Position numbers and translations under genes: made by a program. Below the pieces are notes generated by a model. It searched no databases, was not told where the DNA came from, and saw only the letters and a list, made by a program, of their open reading frames with translations. A DNA stretch of 64,000 bases from Thalassotalea ponticola (GTDB lineage Bacteria; Pseudomonadota; Gammaproteobacteria; Enterobacterales; Alteromonadaceae), in assembly GCF_041379045.1 (NCBI RefSeq), contig NZ_CP166871.1, positions 3,038,001 to 3,102,000 of the forward strand, given 5' to 3'. Of this stretch, positions 12,329-51,610 are shown piece after piece (the stretch's first letter is position 1; every line of letters begins with the position of its first letter).

Positions 12329-12372
12329 ATTAAACAAGCTCGAGCTGAAATTAATTATTTGGAGTGACTCAC

Positions 12373-12609
12373 ATGTCTAAAGTTTGCCAAGTTACAGGCA
12401 AAAAACCGATGGTAGGTAACAACCGTTCACACGCTTTGAACGCTACTCGTCGTCGTTTTTTACCAAACCTACAAACTCACCGTTTTTGGGTTGAAAGTGA
12501 AAATCGTTTCGTAAAATTGCGCACTACTCCTAAAGGAATGCGTATCATCGATAAAAAAGGTATCGATGCTGTGTTAGCAGACATCCGTGCCCGTGGCGAA
12601 AATATCTAA
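12373..12609 (+). CDS. rpmB: 50S ribosomal protein L28
   Basis: 78-residue basic protein of the large ribosomal subunit. Start 12373 ([10 protein letters not shown]) fits the family; the in-frame GTG at 12364 overlaps the GGAG box, which lies at ideal distance from 12373. Recognisable blocks: [33 protein letters not shown] and the C-terminal [16 protein letters not shown]. rpmG follows after 11 bases, the standard operon. Confidence 0.98.
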
Positions 12610-12620
12610 GGAATTGAACA

Positions 12621-12776
12621 ATGCGTGATAAAATTCGTTTAGTTTCATCTGCTGGTACTGGTCATTTTTATACTACTGACAAGAATAAAAAGACCATGCC
12701 TGAAAAGATGGAAATCAAAAAGTTTGATCCAAAAGCTCGCAAGCACGTGATCTACAAAGAAGCAAAAATCAAGTAA
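12621..12776 (+). CDS. rpmG: 50S ribosomal protein L33
   Basis: 51-residue large-subunit protein, too short for common ORF cut-offs. It reads [19 protein letters not shown], then [18 protein letters not shown] and [14 protein letters not shown]. It lacks Cys-x2-Cys pairs, so it is the zinc-free (C-minus) form. The start at 12621 follows AAGGAATTG. The second gene of the rpmB operon, it is followed directly by a strong terminator. Confidence 0.98.
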
Positions 12777-12792
12777 TTGACTGCGCTTTCTT

Positions 12793-12822
12793 AAAAAACC
12801 CGGTATCGCACCGGGTTTTTTT
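12793..12822 (+). terminator. Rho-independent terminator of rpmB-rpmG
   Basis: ACCCGGT (12798-12804) pairs with ACCGGGT (12810-12816), flanked by an A-run and followed by seven Ts. It lies 17 bases after the rpmG stop. Confidence 0.92.
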
Positions 12823-12967
12823 ATATCTAATGTTCAACCCCCCCTCGCCTTGGCTAACACAAGGCCCGCTCACCCGGCAAGCAGTGTCATTTACTACTTG
12901 CACCATTTAGCTACAACAGATAAATTAACATTTATCTAACATTCAGATCAGCAAACGGGAGCTCAGC

Positions 12968-13561
12968 ATGGGTTTTTGGATATTTCTTGCGGTTGTCATT
13001 GTCGCCGTACTCTACTTTATTGGTATTTTTAATCAGCTTGTCGCATTAAAGAACCGTTACAAAAATGCCTTTGCCCAAATTGAAGTACAGCTAAAGCGGC
13101 GTTATGACTTAATACCGAACCTGGTTGAAACAGCTAAAGCGTATATGAGTCACGAACGAGAAACTCTCGAAGCGGTAATTACCGCCAGAAACAATGCCGC
13201 AAACGGACTGGCCGCCGCTGCCGCAAGCCCCGGCGACCCACAAGCGATGCAAGCGTTAATGGGCGCAGAGGGATCTCTAATGGGAGCGCTGAGCAAACTG
13301 AATGTGGTGATGGAAGACTACCCTGAGCTTAAAGCAAATGAAAATATGATGCAGCTCAATGAAGAGTTAGTAAGTACTGAAAATCGAGTCAGTTTTGCTC
13401 GCCAAGCCTTTAATGACCAGGTAATGAGTTACAACACCTATAAGCAAAGTTTTCCACAAAACATATTAGCAGGCATGTTTGGCCACGGTGTTGATGCCCA
13501 ATTACTTGAATTTGAGGATTCAGAACAAATTCAAAAAGCGCCATCTGTATCGTTTAAATAA
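12968..13561 (+). CDS. LemA family protein
   Basis: 197 residues. One N-terminal membrane segment (residues about 2-22) anchors a long alpha-helical domain with the LemA hallmarks: KNRYKNAFAQIEVQLKRRYDLIPNLVE, an Ala-rich helix near 80, then LNEELVSTENRVSFARQAFNDQVMSYN and the P-x-N-x-x-A motif (FPQNILAGMFG). GGGAG precedes the ATG. It is coupled with an M48 peptidase gene 22 bases downstream, a frequent pairing. The biochemical role of LemA proteins is not known. Confidence 0.9.
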   Translation: MGFWIFLAVVIVAVLYFIGIFNQLVALKNRYKNAFAQIEVQLKRRYDLIPNLVETAKAYMSHERETLEAVITARNNAANGLAAAAASPGDPQAMQALMGAEGSLMGALSKLNVVMEDYPELKANENMMQLNEELVSTENRVSFARQAFNDQVMSYNTYKQSFPQNILAGMFGHGVDAQLLEFEDSEQIQKAPSVSFK

Positions 13562-38066: not shown

Positions 38067-38780
38067 CTAAATGAGCAAGCCAAGTTGCTCAACGGAATCA
38101 AATTCTGCATTAGGTAAAATCTTTAACGGCTTTTTACGGATTCCAAACTGCGAATTATTAATCCAAATGGTTTGACAGCCTGCCGCCTGCGCCCCGTAAA
38201 TATCGGCGTGTGTGCAGTCACCCACGTGCAACAATTCTGCTCGGTTAATGGCTAATGCAGCTGATGCTTGCGCAAACATATCGGCTTCGGGTTTTTGTAA
38301 ATTGCCATTGCCAGCAAAAAAGCTAGCAGTAAAGTAGTCGCTAAGACCAATATCATCGATATTGACGTTACCATTTGAAATCGCCACTAACGGATAGCGC
38401 TGCGACAGTTTGAGCAATAACGCTTTAACGCTGTGCGGAACCTGAAAATCATTGCGGTGTTGTAAAAAGTGATCAAATGCCTGTTGTGATTTAGCCTTTG
38501 CATCGCGCTGATCACAGCCGAGTTGTTCCATACCAAGCTGAATGTAAGCTAAGCGCAAGGCACTGACATCGTGGGCGAGCGAAGGTTGTTCGGCGATAAT
38601 GCGCTGGCGTTGCTGTTGCCAAAACTCAGGTCCAAGTGACGCGCACTGTGGCGCTAATTGTTGCAGACACAACTGCAGCTGGTGCTCTGCTTTAGTGATC
38701 ACCGGATGGTTGTCATAGAGCGTGTCATCAAGATCAAAACTAATCGCTTTAAAGTTAGCGAGTCTTTTATAAAATCGCAC
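38067..38780 (-). CDS. yigB: HAD phosphatase YigB
   Basis: 237 residues. Motif I ISFDLDDTLYDN near 14-25, motif II AISNGN near 132, motif IV HVGDCTHADIYGAQAAG near 188-204. E. coli YigB dephosphorylates 5-amino-6-(5-phospho-D-ribitylamino)uracil and FMN; the same role is inferred. It begins 4 bases after the DUF484 stop, so xerC, usually between the two, is absent. Confidence 0.9.
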   Translation of the reverse strand: MRFYKRLANFKAISFDLDDTLYDNHPVITKAEHQLQLCLQQLAPQCASLGPEFWQQQRQRIIAEQPSLAHDVSALRLAYIQLGMEQLGCDQRDAKAKSQQAFDHFLQHRNDFQVPHSVKALLLKLSQRYPLVAISNGNVNIDDIGLSDYFTASFFAGNGNLQKPEADMFAQASAALAINRAELLHVGDCTHADIYGAQAAGCQTIWINNSQFGIRKKPLKILPNAEFDSVEQLGLLI

Positions 38781-38784
38781 ATCC

Positions 38785-39483
38785 CTACCTTAGCTTTGCC
38801 AGCTGCTGTAACAACAATTTTGCCACTAACGTGCGAAACTGCTCGAGTAACAGTGTATCGACGGTCGGATTGAAATGATCGGCATCAACCGAACTGAATG
38901 CCAAAAAGCCCAACACTCTATCAGCATCGGTTAATTTTACTAAGGCCACGGACGCAGCCTCAGTCGAATCAAATAACTGTGACTTCTCAACGTTATCAAG
39001 ACGTCCAAAGTAATAATCATCGTGACTTAGGCGTTTACTGATGATTGCCGAGCAATCGGTACTCAGCATACACGGGTGTTCGCTATCGACCTCTGCATCG
39101 AGCAGATACAGCTTAACCCGAGCTAAATTTAAATATTGCATGGTTTGTTCGATGTGATCTAAAAATTCATTCAAATCAGCACTGTCGAGTAACCTCAGAT
39201 ACAACGCATTGTACACCGAAAACAATTGTTCATTGTGATGCGCCGTCTGCAGTAATTGAGTGATTTCATCCTCGAGCGCATAAATTTTTTGTCGTTGAAG
39301 TTGCTGTTGACGCTCCACTAACGAGACGACGCCCCGCGACGTATCGGTCAGCTTCAGTGATTGCAATACGCTGGGGTTGCGCTGAAAAAAATCGGTATTT
39401 TCGCGTAGGTAGGCACTCACTAACTCATCGTTAACAAGGGAGAGTTCATCGTCTAAATTTAAGTTATTACTGTCGTTATTCAA
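38785..39483 (-). CDS. yigA: DUF484 family protein (YigA)
   Basis: 232 residues. GAF-like C-terminal domain after a helical N-terminus; YLRENTDFFQRNPSVLQSLKL near 24-44 is the family signature, followed by a coiled region and a beta-rich domain ending FRTLVAKLLLQQL. The start is TTG at 39483; no in-frame ATG fits. Function unknown. Conserved between dapF and xerC/yigB in gammaproteobacteria. Confidence 0.88.
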   Translation of the reverse strand: MNNDSNNLNLDDELSLVNDELVSAYLRENTDFFQRNPSVLQSLKLTDTSRGVVSLVERQQQLQRQKIYALEDEITQLLQTAHHNEQLFSVYNALYLRLLDSADLNEFLDHIEQTMQYLNLARVKLYLLDAEVDSEHPCMLSTDCSAIISKRLSHDDYYFGRLDNVEKSQLFDSTEAASVALVKLTDADRVLGFLAFSSVDADHFNPTVDTLLLEQFRTLVAKLLLQQLAKLR

Positions 39484-39510
39484 ACTACATCCAAATTTTG
39501 TTCGCTGCTT

Positions 39511-40341
39511 CTATATATGCAGGTGCCCGTCAAACACGTGTTCTGCAGGTCCTGTCATTTTTACGGGGTGTCCTGGCCCTTTCCAAAATATCTTCAGTTT
39601 ACCACCGGGTAGCTCCACGGTCACATTATTGGCCAGTTTCTGTTGATTCATGGCCACCACCACGGCTGCACATGCTCCGCTACCACAAGCCAGTGTTTCG
39701 CCCGTTCCTCGCTCGTAAACTCTCAGCTTAATGTATTTGTCTGAGACCCGCTCCATAAAGCCGATATTAGCGCCTTCGGGAAAGCGTTCATGTTGGGCAA
39801 GCTCTTTGCCTAAAGTCTCTACCTCAGCTCTGCTTACATCATCAACGCTGATCACACAATGGGGATTGCCCATTGATACCACACCGCAAAAAACGGTTTG
39901 AGTATCAGTGCGTAAAATGTAGGTGCCTTCTACCTTTTGTGCGGTAAATGGAACTTTTGCCGGTTCAAATACGGGCACCGGCATGGTAACTGTCACCTGT
40001 CCGTCGCGCTCTATATGCAAGGTCATTTTACCCGATGCGGTCGAAACCTTAACCTTATTCTTATTGGTTAGACCTTTCATTTTAACAAAGCGGGCAAAGC
40101 AACGAGCACCATTACCGCATTGATTGACTTCACTGCCATCCGCGTTGAATATGCGGTAGTGAAAATCCAAGTCGGGATCGTATGGCGGTTCGACAATGAG
40201 CAACTGATCAAAACCTATACCAAAGTGTCTATCAGCGAGTTTACTGATTTGATCTTTTGACAAAAAGACGTTTTGGGTGACGTTATCAAGCACTAAAAAA
40301 TCATTGCCTAAGCCGTGCATTTTCGAAAAATTCATCAACAT
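39511..40341 (-). CDS. dapF: Diaminopimelate epimerase
   Basis: 276 residues from ATG 40341 ([15 protein letters not shown]), which has a GAG about 10 bases upstream; 40335 (MNFSKM) or 40356 are alternatives. Interconverts LL- and meso-diaminopimelate for lysine and peptidoglycan. The two catalytic cysteines sit in NQCGNGARC near 72 and LACGSGACA near 218 (numbering from 40341). It is just downstream of lysA in one operon. Confidence 0.96.
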
Positions 40342-40359
40342 TGAGTGTCTACTCATAAC

Positions 40360-46486: not shown

Positions 46487-47629
46487 GTGTTAAAGCAATC
46501 AGTATTGATGCTAGCGATTGCTAGCATCAGCTTTTTAGGTTGGGCCAATGGCCCTCGATTTGAACTAGAAAACAACCCAGACATTGGCCAGATGACGCTA
46601 CAAAAAGTCAGTGACCTGTGCTTTGTTGCCGATAATACCAATGCCTATCTGCAAAACCCTGAATTGGCCAGCAGAGACAAACAAAGCGTACATCAGGGAC
46701 ATGTATTTGACCAAGGTGTAACCCTTGCTCGAGTACAACGCACACTGCAATTTATTTGCGATACCTATCGCTTTGATGTGCGCAATAACCAACCGAGTCG
46801 CTTACACGATGTCAACTTTATCAAGCAGCACTTTGACTTTTATCGTTGGTACCCAGATAAGACAACCGCTTCTCACATTGCCAGCAAAAGCCTCAATGAC
46901 GCGAAGCAACGCATGCTAAACGATATTCCGAGCGACCAATTATTTATAACTAAATATTACACCAAGCGGTTAACCGCCAGTGAACAAAAATCAAAACAGT
47001 ACCCACAGGCACTGTATGCCTTGCCGTTTGATGAGCAAGGTTTGAGTAAGCAACAAGCGCTCGCTCAGTCTAACTCGCTAACTCGCTTTAAATATACTCG
47101 TCAGCAAATTATCGATGGAGCTTTGTTGGCAAATAAGCTTGCGCAACCCTTGGTATGGCTAAGCGAAGAAGCCTTACACGACGTATTGTTACAAGGTACC
47201 GGGGTGCTTGATGTCAATGGCCGTACCCGCTACTTTAACGTACACCGTAACAATGGCATTGAATACGATTACGCGCTGGGTAAACGCGAACAACAACGCT
47301 ATTGGTATTTTGCTGAAGTACCCGGCATCATGGGCTACGGCGATAGGTTAGAAGATAAAATTGAAGTGCGCCCGCATGTCACCTTTGCCGGTAATGTCAC
47401 TCAACTTGGTTTGGGCAAATTAATCATGATTAATTACCAAGCAAACGGCCGTTCAACCAGCCAAATGGCTGTTTTGGCCGATACCGGTGGAGCGTTCGAC
47501 AATAATTTATTTCAATTGGATTTGTTAGTCGATAGTTACGCTGGATGGAGTGATTATCACGAGGCAAACAAGCACCTCCCCGATTACGCCAAGGCATGGG
47601 TTATGCTGATCAAACAACCAGAAAAATAA
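46487..47629 (+). CDS. Uncharacterised exported protein, possible 3D/MltA-like domain
   Basis: 380 residues; not confidently recognised. It begins with GTG directly after the hemY TAA, so it is coupled to the hem operon. The signal peptide (about 1-20, cleavage near GWANG) predicts a periplasmic location. Near residues 330-350 MAVLADTGGAFDNNLFQLD resembles the 3D domain (Asp-Thr-Gly-Gly) of MltA lytic transglycosylases and related cell-wall proteins. The rest shows no motif I can name. A cell-wall role is possible but inferred from this short match only. Confidence 0.7.
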   Translation: MLKQSVLMLAIASISFLGWANGPRFELENNPDIGQMTLQKVSDLCFVADNTNAYLQNPELASRDKQSVHQGHVFDQGVTLARVQRTLQFICDTYRFDVRNNQPSRLHDVNFIKQHFDFYRWYPDKTTASHIASKSLNDAKQRMLNDIPSDQLFITKYYTKRLTASEQKSKQYPQALYALPFDEQGLSKQQALAQSNSLTRFKYTRQQIIDGALLANKLAQPLVWLSEEALHDVLLQGTGVLDVNGRTRYFNVHRNNGIEYDYALGKREQQRYWYFAEVPGIMGYGDRLEDKIEVRPHVTFAGNVTQLGLGKLIMINYQANGRSTSQMAVLADTGGAFDNNLFQLDLLVDSYAGWSDYHEANKHLPDYAKAWVMLIKQPEK

Positions 47630-47633
47630 TGCC

Positions 47634-47711
47634 GTCATCCCATCATGTTTTTCGACTGCAAGGATGCTGGAGTTAGAGCAACGCATGGAGCAGTTGCCGA
47701 AGATGGGATCT
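47634..47711. repeat. Dispersed intergenic repeat, copy 1 (long form)
   Basis: Begins GTCATCCCATCATG and ends AGATGGGATCTC; the ATCCCATC/GATGGGAT ends are inverted. About 50 bases of unrelated sequence lie between. The same ends occur in copy 2 at 47788-47818, as in short GTCATCCC-type intergenic repeats common in bacteria. Confidence 0.6.
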
Positions 47712-47787
47712 CTATTCATTTTAATGTGGCTTTGATAGGCAGCTTTGTGCCAGTCAGAGTCGCTCAAATAATTACAAACAATTCAGC

Positions 47788-47818
47788 GTCATCCCATCAT
47801 GCTTTTGGATGGGATCTC
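47788..47818. repeat. Dispersed intergenic repeat, copy 2 (short form)
   Basis: GTCATCCCATCATG identical to copy 1 for 14 bases, then the mirror arm GATGGGAT (47808-47815). The 8-bp arms (47791-47798 with 47808-47815) form a perfect hairpin over nine bases. Confidence 0.65.
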
Positions 47819-47903
47819 CTTCAGTTTCGATGTAGCTTGACCGGCCGAAAAGTGCCATTTTCTGCCCGTTAGCAATTGCTAATATACGCTGGTTTCGAGG
47901 TAA

Positions 47904-47998
47904 TAACACCTCAATAAGTGGCGCAAAATAGTTGGCTAAAATAAGCGAGGCACGAGCGCAGCCAACTGTTTTGCGTCCATGACTTTATTGCCTTGTTA
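47904..47998 (-). other. attC-like integron recombination site
   Basis: A 95-base imperfect palindrome of about 30 pairs. Outer stem TAACA/TGTTA (47904-47908 with 47994-47998), then three unpaired bases on each side, then a long inner stem with bulged bases on one side only, ending in AGTTGGCT (47930-47937) with AGCCAACT (47960-47967) around a 22-base loop. Outer AAC/GTT stem, unpaired spacer, long inner stem and extra-helical bases are the architecture of attC sites. It overlaps the stop codon of the neighbouring minus-strand gene, as attC sites do in gene cassettes. No integrase gene is in the window. Confidence 0.7.
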
Positions 47999-48232
47999 TG
48001 GGGATCTGCGCAACTTAAAAAGCTTAAATAAAAAGGCTAAACCAAAACAAATTAAACAAAGGGTTATAAAGCGATCAAAATTTGCTATATGAGTATTGTC
48101 AATATTCTCAGGAGATGAAAAAGCGCCTAAGAAATATAAGCCGATTGTCCATCCGACCAAAATCGGGCTGAATTTGTCAAACGCAAAATGAAAAGCATTC
48201 TTGACGTCCTCTAACACTCTTTTGATCCTCAT
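47996..48232 (-). CDS. Hypothetical small membrane protein (possible integron cassette gene)
   Basis: 78 residues, no family recognised. A charged N-terminal helix (MRIKRVLEDVKNAF) is followed by two membrane segments (about 23-41 and 53-71) and a basic tail, suggesting an inner-membrane protein. Its TAA is the first part of the attC-like palindrome. The ATG has only a weak ribosome-binding site. Base composition is more AT-rich than the flanking hem genes, consistent with transfer. Confidence 0.6.
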   Translation of the reverse strand: MRIKRVLEDVKNAFHFAFDKFSPILVGWTIGLYFLGAFSSPENIDNTHIANFDRFITLCLICFGLAFLFKLFKLRRSP

Positions 48233-48513
48233 AACAGTTGCAATAAGTGGAAATATCCATGAAACACGGAATTATTCCACGTTTTATTAAATGATAATTA
48301 TCGGTATTACTAAACCGACCGTTGATCGCTCGCAACAGCCGTTCGTCAGTGCATGTATTAATCAATAACTTACGCTCTAACTACGACCGATGCAAACCTA
48401 CCAACAGCGGTCAGCTATGAAAGATGTCGAACGTTATTACAACGAAAGAACATTTAGCTTGACTGAATGGTTAAACATCAGAAACATAGATGCTCGATAG
48501 AGTTTAAACTGCG
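48233..48513. other. AT-rich gap with no convincing gene
   Basis: About 280 bases. A minus-strand TTG-led frame (48177-48365, 62 codons) and a 27-codon plus-strand frame starting ATG at 48417 are present, but neither has a family match or good start signals. AATAAC (48364-48369) and GTTATT (48433-48438) are inverted and enclose a GACCG/CGGTC stem; this could be a degenerate attC-like site but pairing between is poor. Confidence 0.4.
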
Positions 48514-49319: not shown

Positions 49320-51332
49320 TTATGGTTGTTTGGTCGCTGGCTCTGTTTTTTTCACGACCGAGATAATCGGCTCTGGCTGCGACATACTCCATTCCCATAA
49401 CCAAGACGCTTGCTTTTGAACTCTAGGGAGATCGCGAGCTAAAAGCCAACCCTGTTTCACACTTTGTTGCGCAATCAGATTTATATGGCTGATGTATGCT
49501 TGGCGATTTTGATAACGGGTAATGATCTTATCCTTAGGCCAACGTCGGGTAGCGCCTCTAAAATCACTCATCTCTTCACTGGCAAACAAGCCGTAACGCA
49601 AGCTCCAAGGAATAAACGTGGCAATGGGAGCCTCAATAAGTGGATGGCGAATACCGCCCAACTCGTGTCCATTGGTATCGACCTTGGCTACACTTGGCAC
49701 AATTTCTGCGAGCACCATAGGCGGCTGATTGGTAATAATCCCTTTAGACCAGTCTTTGCCGTAGTCCAGTGCGTAAGCCGTGTGTGGTTTGAACGGTTTT
49801 TGCACGCCTAACCAAGCCGGTAATTGGTAATGAGAGAATGGCGTCAAGGTGTGATCAGCGTACTTGGGGTAAGCGCTGTTAGGCGGCAGTTTTGAGTCAA
49901 TAACCCAATCACTTAAATGAGTTAACAATGCCCTGAGTTGTACGCGAAAATCAATTGGATTACCTTGGAATAGGTTATCGCTTTGCTCTATTGGCGTTAG
50001 CGCTTGTTGGTCTTCTACATAATGCTGCGTCGATGCCAAGTGATAAATGCGCTCGTTGTCTAATGGCTCCACATCGTGGACACCTTTAGTGTGAATAAGG
50101 GCAGCAGCGCGTCCCCAGTACTCATATCCCGTATTGGTATAAAAGATATTCGGATAAAACGGATCGTGATGTTGTTTTAGCAGACCGTCTTTCTTGTTGG
50201 TGATTGGCGAACGAGTTCGCTCACTGGTAAATGGAAAAATATCAGTGGGATAGAAAAATGCTGACATCCGATGGCCATCGCGAGATGGCTGTGCAAAGCG
50301 GTGATTAAAACTGCCGCGTCCCGCACCAGCCGTATGAATTAACATGCCATCGAACGCTTTACTGCCGGTTTCAGTTTCGTTGAAGCCTTGATAGAGAAAC
50401 TGACGTAAAAAGCGACCTGTTTGCGAGACCCCAAAAGCAATGGTTTTATCGACCTTAAACGGGCTACTCGCTTGCTTTAAATAGTCCGCCGTGTCGCGGA
50501 TAATTGCCAATCCAATTCCGGCAACTAGAGGATCTTTGGCAGGGTAAATCAACTCGTAAATACCTGGCTCAAAACGCCCAGCTATCGACTTGCCGTCAGA
50601 GCTAAACTGCCAATCTTCTCTAGAGACAATGCTCTTTAGACCATCTCGACTGACCCGATAAGTTAACCAAGCTTCTTGCTGTTGCGCAAAATCAACGGGG
50701 TAAACGGTTTCGATTACATTGGGGCGGTGAGCGAGAGACAGCAGAGATTTGGCGCTATCGACCGTCCAGTCACTGCGCACCCAACCAGTTTGTCCAGTAA
50801 CACGAGGCAATTGCGCGCGCATGATATGTTTATCCGATGCTTTAACATCGCCTTGCCAACCAACCCAAACAAGCGACAAACCAAGTTCTTGAATTAAACC
50901 ATCGCCAAGGTGCATTGACGACGATGGTATATCGCTGCTAGAGGCAAAGTTAAAGTAACGCAGGGATGCCTTGGAGCCTCGATTAGAGACTTCAACTAAG
51001 GCGCCTTTGCGCTGCTCAGGGTTCTTATTTTGGATAATTAAATAATTGGCGCTCGCGGTTACAAACCCACTGGCATTCGTCTTAGCCAACGACAAGTCTA
51101 CAATCGCTTGGTTAGCATGGTGCTTTGGGTCTAAGCCCAATTCAAATTGACCGGCGATAACTTCGTACTGTTGGCCTTTAAAACTGTATTCGTATTTTTT
51201 ATCAACCGTATTGCCAATAATTTTGGCGTCAACTGCATGTGGCATCAATAACCACATGCTACAGCAAAACGTCAATATCAGCTTAGAGAGCCCACTTTTG
51301 CCGATTATTAACTTCTGTAACCACATAACCAT
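49320..51332 (-). CDS. Exported alpha/beta hydrolase domain protein (Abhydrolase_10-like)
   Basis: 670 residues from ATG 51332; the ATG at 51338 is too close to the AAAGG, which fits 51332 better. A long hydrophobic segment (SKLILTFCCSMWLLMPHAVDA) is a signal peptide or anchor. Family signs: VEVSNRGSKASLRYFN, LVWVGWQGDV, FGVSQTGRFLRQFLYQGFNE near 305-325 holding the nucleophile elbow G-x-S-x-T-G, and IHTAGAGRGSFNHRFAQPSRDG. Relatives are uncharacterised periplasmic hydrolases, sometimes near aromatic or steroid catabolic genes. Monocistronic. Confidence 0.78.
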   Translation of the reverse strand: MVMWLQKLIIGKSGLSKLILTFCCSMWLLMPHAVDAKIIGNTVDKKYEYSFKGQQYEVIAGQFELGLDPKHHANQAIVDLSLAKTNASGFVTASANYLIIQNKNPEQRKGALVEVSNRGSKASLRYFNFASSSDIPSSSMHLGDGLIQELGLSLVWVGWQGDVKASDKHIMRAQLPRVTGQTGWVRSDWTVDSAKSLLSLAHRPNVIETVYPVDFAQQQEAWLTYRVSRDGLKSIVSREDWQFSSDGKSIAGRFEPGIYELIYPAKDPLVAGIGLAIIRDTADYLKQASSPFKVDKTIAFGVSQTGRFLRQFLYQGFNETETGSKAFDGMLIHTAGAGRGSFNHRFAQPSRDGHRMSAFFYPTDIFPFTSERTRSPITNKKDGLLKQHHDPFYPNIFYTNTGYEYWGRAAALIHTKGVHDVEPLDNERIYHLASTQHYVEDQQALTPIEQSDNLFQGNPIDFRVQLRALLTHLSDWVIDSKLPPNSAYPKYADHTLTPFSHYQLPAWLGVQKPFKPHTAYALDYGKDWSKGIITNQPPMVLAEIVPSVAKVDTNGHELGGIRHPLIEAPIATFIPWSLRYGLFASEEMSDFRGATRRWPKDKIITRYQNRQAYISHINLIAQQSVKQGWLLARDLPRVQKQASWLWEWSMSQPEPIISVVKKTEPATKQP

Positions 51333-51610
51333 ATACATCCTTTTATTATTATAAAACAGATATTAACCGCGTCAGTTGAAAATGCAAGACGTAGCGAGCA
51401 ACGCAAGCGATAAACTTAACAGTTATTGCGCTATGGTGATCTACTATTGCGTAAATTGACTGAAATAGTAACTAATACTTTGTTATATATTAAAAATTTT
51501 TAGTTTTAGTCGCTAACTAACGAGAGGGATTGGTCAGCGCGGCTCGAGCGGAATGCGTCAATAGCCACGCTAATAATTGAGCTGATAATTGAAGTTTTGC
51601 CCGCTAATTG

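Follow-up and report, generated by a model that had tools for sequence, protein, structure and literature searches.

A 480-bp unit on the minus strand of the window (the whole stretch of 64,000 nucleotides that was analysed), located at 47852..48331, consists of an attI-like site, one integron gene cassette and a short tail, and identical copies of it lie at C1:1530.3k and C1:311.8k. We consider it likely that this unit, which carries no integrase, was filled in trans by IntI and copied to the three loci by a second cassette system. The displaced attI-like site would act as an integron entry point without an integrase of its own and would have received the cassette, the exchange probably being carried out in trans by the IntI of the same cell's chromosomal integron. 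The attI-like site, the cassette and the tail would then travel as one piece between a GAGCGA site on the left and a TGGCAC site on the right. The second system, whose enzyme is probably a tyrosine recombinase, would have put the identical copies at the three loci, and new cassettes of this system would enter at the closing TGGCAC site.

The attC site and the gene cassette

The 95-base palindrome at 47904..47998 (minus strand) is, as far as sequence can tell, with certainty a true attC site. The original prediction had described it as a palindrome with the layered attC layout, and both its folding (z = -4.9; none of 200 shuffles equally stable) and its architecture, with an AAC/GTT outer stem, unpaired spacers and one-sided bulges in the inner stem, were reproduced. 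So was its position: the first bases, TAAC, share the stop codon with the 78-codon open reading frame at 47996-48232, and the site ends with GTTA. The search with an attC model that had been proposed as a check gave a clear match. The minus strand, on which the small gene lies, scored 87.5 bits (E 4e-21), the plus strand 23.7 bits. This covariance model (R1) was built, with the window site excluded, from 32 aligned attC sites of other genomes' integrons, chosen from 41 that passed length and end filters out of 79 candidates; 16 of its 25 pairs show pair-keeping changes at both positions. In blastn the site also matched the resident attC array of the genome. Dispersed repeats are abundant in the region, so that a REP/MITE element or a terminator resembling attC by chance might be considered, yet given the score, the double changes behind the model and the likeness to the resident array this is hardly conceivable. 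Nor is the palindrome scattered in the manner of a REP/MITE family, as it was found at three unrelated loci only, each time with the same gene. According to the covariance model it is the only attC in the window. A gathering-threshold scan of the window with Rfam gave zero matches, and in a blastn search of plasmids, which returned 16 records, all 16 rows aligned to the attC part only.

The cassette itself comprises 328 bp (47907..48234, minus strand). At the 3' end its border, GGTG|TT at 47907/47906, coincides with the exchange point of the attC. Its 5' border, on the attI side, is CTG|TT at 48235/48234 and was obtained from a comparison of four leaders, since the leader common to three other loci loses its match there. 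Thus a single gene in attC orientation, with the attC beside its stop codon, lies between two G|TT borders. The original prediction had instead placed the upstream border at the hexamer GTTATT (48364-48369) and arrived at about 460 bases. The hexamer is present but lies within a dispersed repeat, here called U, and 14 of 19 other U copies read GTTATTGATTAAT at its position; as part of a multi-copy repeat it is uninformative on the border of the cassette.

The cassette gene (47996..48232, minus strand) was taken as an ATG open reading frame of 78 aa encoding a small, membrane-bound-looking protein. Translation more likely starts at the GTG at 48217, giving 73 aa, and GAGGA (48226-48230) would be its ribosome site; P0001, the one homologue found in the protein database (78% identity), has its first residue at the position corresponding to this GTG. 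The protein belongs to no Pfam or NCBIfam family and no relative was found in viral contigs. Probably the product is a small protein in the membrane.

The locus is flanked by a gene with an MltA-insert domain (46487-47629) and an Abhydrolase_10 gene (49320-51338). The place between them is variable in the genus: in 11 relatives having the MltA-insert gene, the DNA behind it changes from relative to relative, as judged by eye. Searches with tblastn and blastn of the 3.4-4.1 kb stretches at this gene detected the cassette gene and the 480-bp unit in none of the 11, and these stretches contained no attC above 14 bits; in two of them (L132 and L141) the far flanking gene lies outside the stretch compared. 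Hence conservation of the gene at this locus in all relatives, which had been named as an observation that would speak against a cassette, does not apply. At the same locus of G194 (L136) a TGGCAC-type site is readable by eye.

The attI-like leader and the integron of the same chromosome

Upstream of the cassette lies a leader, P (48235..48331, minus strand), whose relatives at C1:313580 and C1:2712058 share about 94% identity with it, a further leader at C1:3279391 being more distant. The four leaders (window, 313.6, 2712.1 and 3279.4 kb) diverge at one point, CTG|TT, into different sequences. The attI-like site within the window leader extends over 48232..48289 (minus strand), with its exchange point at 48235/48234 and its final three bases already part of the cassette. 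For comparison, 28 attI sites of related integrons were assembled (31 of 78 IntI loci were offered, three of which gave no regex match; L054 and L089 were left out). These mostly end in TAATAAGCTG|TTA or near variants, and in many of them a GGAA..TTCC-type block precedes this end. Aligned to the 28 sites, the window leader reached z 7.4, with none of 300 shuffles as good, and among 84 58-mers ending in CTGTTA, taken from this genome (the window and six further loci), the attI-like stretch ranked first (7.6, the next scoring 6.1). It also aligns well to a displaced attI at 3208.8 kb. With a hidden Markov model of attI the scores were weak (3.2 bits for the window leader, 1.5 for those at 313k and 2712k and no row for that at 3279k; for reference, 12.6 for the resident attI itself and 29.0 for the 3208.8k site), so that the assignment rests on alignment, position and exchange footprint.

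This footprint comes from the sister arrays at 313k and 2712k. Their sequences agree completely over the 97 bp leading to CTG|TT and the 483 bp that follow, except that an additional 1,325 bp with two attC sites stand exactly at CTG|TT in the 313k array. We regard this two-cassette difference, the footprint of an integrase-type insertion or excision at a sister leader, as the strongest evidence for the attI-like nature of P. In the other direction the 97 bp common to both arrays start exactly at GAGCGA, to the left of which there are 0 shared bases. Among the leader and tail repeat matches, for which the joined sequence was not itself a query, none had the leader joined directly to the tail.

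The window leader thus shares with the attI sites of related integrons their homology and a CTG|TT end, at an HMM score of only 3.2 bits, and has no intI beside it: no PF00589 match from the genome-wide domain search falls within the window, as the original prediction had supposed when it saw no integrase gene in view. It is because of the missing neighbour that we call the site displaced and attI-like. That it is a displaced integron entry site appears well, though not perfectly, supported. The idea of a stray cassette integrated at a secondary site has to be given up to this extent, as the cassette occupies an attI-like site.

An ordinary off-target insertion into an attG-type secondary site unrelated to attI would also leave an attC without a nearby intI, and the weak HMM scores of the leader would fit it. 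A 2024 paper in Nat Microbiol on attG sites is said to describe their use by integrases. Several points nevertheless make such an origin unlikely. The leader, whose core aligns to attI, recurs at several loci ahead of differing first cassettes, the sister arrays differ by exactly two cassettes at the same point, and attI-like unit starts occur in G197 and possibly in G198 (see below). The use of attG sites by integrases is mentioned as reported in PMC12901181, and the attG study is cited in PMC11023631.

The integrase proposed to act in trans is encoded on the same chromosome. The search of the genome for PF00589 yielded 11 matches, of which the one at C1 24.1-24.7 kb (C1:24-25 kb) belongs to an uninterrupted intI (TIGR02249, 459.7 bits at a cut-off of 265). 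The largest attC array of the genome (26.0-37.1 kb) adjoins it, so that the proposed search for intI and for further attC arrays found both. The window cassette is located at 3086 kb of the 3,352-kb contig, which is about 290 kb from this intI if the contig is circular. The closest relatives of the IntI are from Thalassomonas sp. M1454 (72%) and Thalassotalea, by which the organism would probably be a Thalassotalea or a near relative; the search of other genomes' contigs gave 78 IntI loci, the top ones mostly from Thalassotalea, Colwellia and Vibrio. In the whole genome the attC model found at least 41 matches at E <= 10 and at least 35 above 30 bits, both being lower bounds as 150 of 1,992 first-look candidates were scored. 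Besides the resident array they form groups at 314-315, 1867-1869, 2197-2202 and 3202-3208 kb, and isolated matches include the window site and its two copies. Transposase genes of the IS110 family were seen beside attC sites in L011 (8442-9596, by Pfam, and 12336-13410) and in L016 (at about 9.58 kb); IS110 relatives that target attC are known.

In the window intI, attI and cassettes are not found together, as they would be in a complete integron, and one may ask whether the locus is the relic of a decayed integron that lost its intI in place and kept the attI and one cassette. The genome does have remnants of this kind. At 3208.8 kb a further displaced attI (HMM E 8.5e-7) is followed by six attC matches (C1:3201.9-3208.9k; L014, L128), with no PF00589 match nearby in the genome-wide search, and a second intI-like gene lies in pieces at C1:2202245-2203214 (L042) with four attC matches beside it. 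For the window locus such decay is very unlikely, as the shared leader measures merely 97 bp and begins at GAGCGA, and as three identical copies of the unit are present at unlinked places. A decayed-integron relic may have been the first source of the leader.

The 480-bp unit and the GAGCGA/TGGCAC sites

The three copies of the unit are identical over all 480 bp, lie at unlinked loci and differ in their flanks beyond the unit. Its left end is a GAGCGA centre (48326..48331, minus strand) with arms at about 48314-48325 and 48332-48343, its right end a TGGCAC centre (47852..47857, minus strand) with a pattern match at 47843-47866. Between the attC exchange point and the right end site lies the tail D1 (47858..47906, minus strand), which contains a perfect palindrome, TTAGCAATTGCTAA, at 47869-47882. 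On both sides the unit is accompanied by dispersed repeats. Upstream this is the U repeat (48326..48412, minus strand), which includes the GTTATT and of which the genome has about two dozen copies (19 others were laid out alongside that of the window). It matched 5 of 196 genomes of the family, the window's own counted, and a scan of other genomes' contigs for a U-core pattern gave 0 matches. Downstream follow the D2 repeats (47690..47849, minus strand) with a period of about 105 bp and a palindrome. Similar elements about 105 bp long, some of them in tandem and each unit with a palindrome and a TGGCAC, were seen here and at many other C1 loci.

These flanks raise the possibility that homologous recombination or gene conversion between U and D2 repeats, and not a second cassette system, produced the three copies. 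Indeed the window and 1530-kb copies both continue into similar repeats on the two sides, and their alignment passes beyond the centres. The 311.8k copy, however, has neither repeat flank and yet ends at the same GAGCGA and TGGCAC centres. Alignments of cassettes from different places point the same way: disregarding 34 of 47 rows, which were overlapping neighbour intervals of one locus, 13 could be used, and 7 of these begin and end no more than 25 bp from the centres. The other 6, which do not break near both centres and to that extent would suit recombination through the flanks, comprise the window and 1530-kb copies, two pairs of G052 arrays whose alignment continues into common neighbours or an insertion, as well as three alignments of a short repeat of about 157 bp. 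On balance we judge recombination between the flanks rather unlikely and retain transfer between specific sites as the preferred reading.

The sites are inverted repeats of about 30 bp, with arms of about 12 bp and a 6-bp centre that is either GAGCGA or TGGCAC. In 44 GAGCGA sites the arms gave 319 complementary matches in register, as opposed to 138-233 at five other shifts. Pairing within a site (319) is no better than pairing between the arms of different sites (mean 326), hence the arms conform to a common consensus and do not covary. The GAGCGA pattern (GAGCGANNNRCRGNC) occurs 32 times in the genome of the window, compared with 2 for the reversed-pattern controls, and the TGGCAC pattern (GNCNGNNNNTGGCACNNNNCNGNC) 13 times, compared with 1. 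The TGGCAC pattern was found in 13 of 14 congeners (14 of 15 genomes with the window's own; control total 2) and is absent from G178. The GAGCGA pattern is present in all 15 genomes of the genus and exceeds the control in 13 of them (12 of the 14 congeners), the exceptions being G196 (3 vs 6) and G087 (4 vs 6). Integron-bearing contigs of other organisms, taken as three groups together, contained the TGGCAC pattern 0 times and the GAGCGA pattern 2 times against 3 in controls; without an excess in these contigs, occurrence beyond the genus is not supported.

In the window's genome and in most of the 14 congeners the sites bound ordered arrays of single genes. When successive sites on the same strand and at most 2.5 kb apart were counted at 12 loci of this genome and 21 of relatives, all chosen because sites were known there, GAGCGA was followed by GAGCGA 90 times and by TGGCAC 30 times, TGGCAC by TGGCAC 6 times and TGGCAC by GAGCGA 0 times. 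Adjacent sites were on the same strand in 125 cases and on opposite strands in 10. The median length of the cassettes was 599 bp, and in 113 of 118 the longest open reading frame lay on the strand of the site (opposite strand, 4; no open reading frame, 1). In the U repeats TGGCAC lies to the left of GAGCGA, the reverse of the array order, and an arm rule excluded most of them from the count; it is a guess that they are non-coding mini-units. A 1,033-bp stretch between outward-facing GAGCGA sites (C1:312548-313580), which we read as mobile, is 99.9% identical to 2277374-2278405 in the opposite orientation, and by eye it holds a TonB-like small gene. Arrays of C1 above 1.7 Mb are mostly on the minus strand, a bias that may follow the direction of replication.

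None of the 11 PF00589 matches of the genome was recognised as the recombinase of this second system. The shortest distance between such a match and an array, about 2.7 kb, is that from a 74-aa fragment to the array at 2041-2043k; a tandem pair at 2723-2725k is separated from the 2712k array by about 11 kb. The arms of the sites appear unlike dif, which speaks against XerCD as a candidate recombinase. Neither XerC nor XerD was recognised in the PF00589 list of the genome. At 38067-40356 of the window, DUF484 and HAD-hydrolase genes (Pfam) follow dapF and are separated by 4 bp with no xerC between them, the position at which related bacteria presumably have it. In another species an IS110-family element (Pfam) was seen beside GAGCGA sites three times (L173 5610-6851 and 11086-12327; L181 4799-6040), the bases ahead of the GAGCGA near these elements being the same in two and showing one difference in the third. 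Taken together, the second system appears strong as a structure, and as a mechanism it is what this structure suggests.

Integron units nested between such sites are, on the same kind of reading, present outside the window too. In G197, another species, one unit has the order GAGCGA, attI-like site, gene, attC, TGGCAC, and another has two attC matches behind an attI-like start; the two leaders gave alignment z values of 9.3 and 6.0 against attI and HMM scores of 7.0 and 0.0 bits. When the first 300 bp at 82 GAGCGA sites were scored, seven starts exceeded 5, namely the window unit three times, those at 313k and 2712k, a G198 start (8.8) and a G200 start (5.4); the G197 units did not figure among these seven. 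As the G200 start scores below the second-best control (6.1), it is G198 in which a further attI-like unit start is possibly present. At C1 1922 kb, an attC with a tail similar to D1 behind it precedes a TGGCAC site; a likeness of the 1922k unit to attI was considered and rejected (its mean score was -0.09, and 2 of 300 shuffles did equally well).

Relation to known systems and significance

CALIN elements are usually defined by two or more attC sites without an intI nearby. With its true attC behind a small gene and no integrase nearby, the window cassette resembles these integrase-less cassettes, and the original prediction of a lone or CALIN-type cassette stands in this respect. With one attC it is below the two-site threshold, and it differs further in the attI-like site ahead of it, in being part of an exact multi-copy unit and in having an integron on the same chromosome. 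What remains of the earlier reading is the real attC and the lone cassette without integrase, and what does not is the 5' border and the stray insertion at a secondary site. The sedentary chromosomal integrons of Thalassotalea and Colwellia share with the unit the sequence type of attC, the attI-like core with CTG|TT and the one small gene per cassette, whereas the unit has no intI and is a single, displaced cassette. Acinetobacter plasmids carry pdif/Xer modules, in which genes are flanked by sites of tyrosine-recombinase type that likewise have a 6-bp centre. They are alike in the modules bounded by 6-bp-centre sites, whereas the sites described here are chromosomal and of one polarity and have arms that we take to be unlike those of dif.

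In delta-attI-type cassettes of class 1 and 2 integrons an attI away from its integrase is reported as a working substrate (PMC12901181). There a partial attI replaces the 3' attC, whereas here the attI-like site lies ahead of the cassette and has taken in insertions. The strand-biased circularizing integrative elements (SEs; PMC9345347, PMC10214605) carry intA, tfp, intB and srap, 19-bp repeats and a 6-bp spacer. They are alike in their imperfect inverted-repeat ends, the 6-bp spacer at the joint and their occurrence in marine Gammaproteobacteria. The inverted-repeat ends with a 6-bp spacer are seen here in the DNA, whereas the intA-tfp-intB-srap set is not, the 480-bp unit having one gene and the open reading frames of the other arrays having been judged by eye. 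The units described here measure about 0.6 kb, mostly hold a single gene and form ordered arrays; their centres are constant and their arms shorter than 19 bp. Within the literature searched, the SE mechanism is the nearest described one.

A possible interpretation, towards which we lean with some reserve, is that the genus has a second cassette system, in which single-gene GAGCGA cassettes of about 0.6 kb are arranged head to tail, closed by TGGCAC and moved by a recombinase acting in trans, and that this system has acquired integron entry sites, units of an integrase-less attI and a cassette being its cargo dispersed over the chromosome, one cassette system nested in another. The origin of integrase-less attC cassettes is an open question, for which the sequence here points to a route: another recombination system would package and scatter attI-like entry sites, which the integrase would then fill in trans. 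Should the second system prove to be a working mechanism, marine bacteria would have a new way to stockpile and shuffle small genes, one that software based on attC would miss and whose sites would lead directly to a search for the enzyme.
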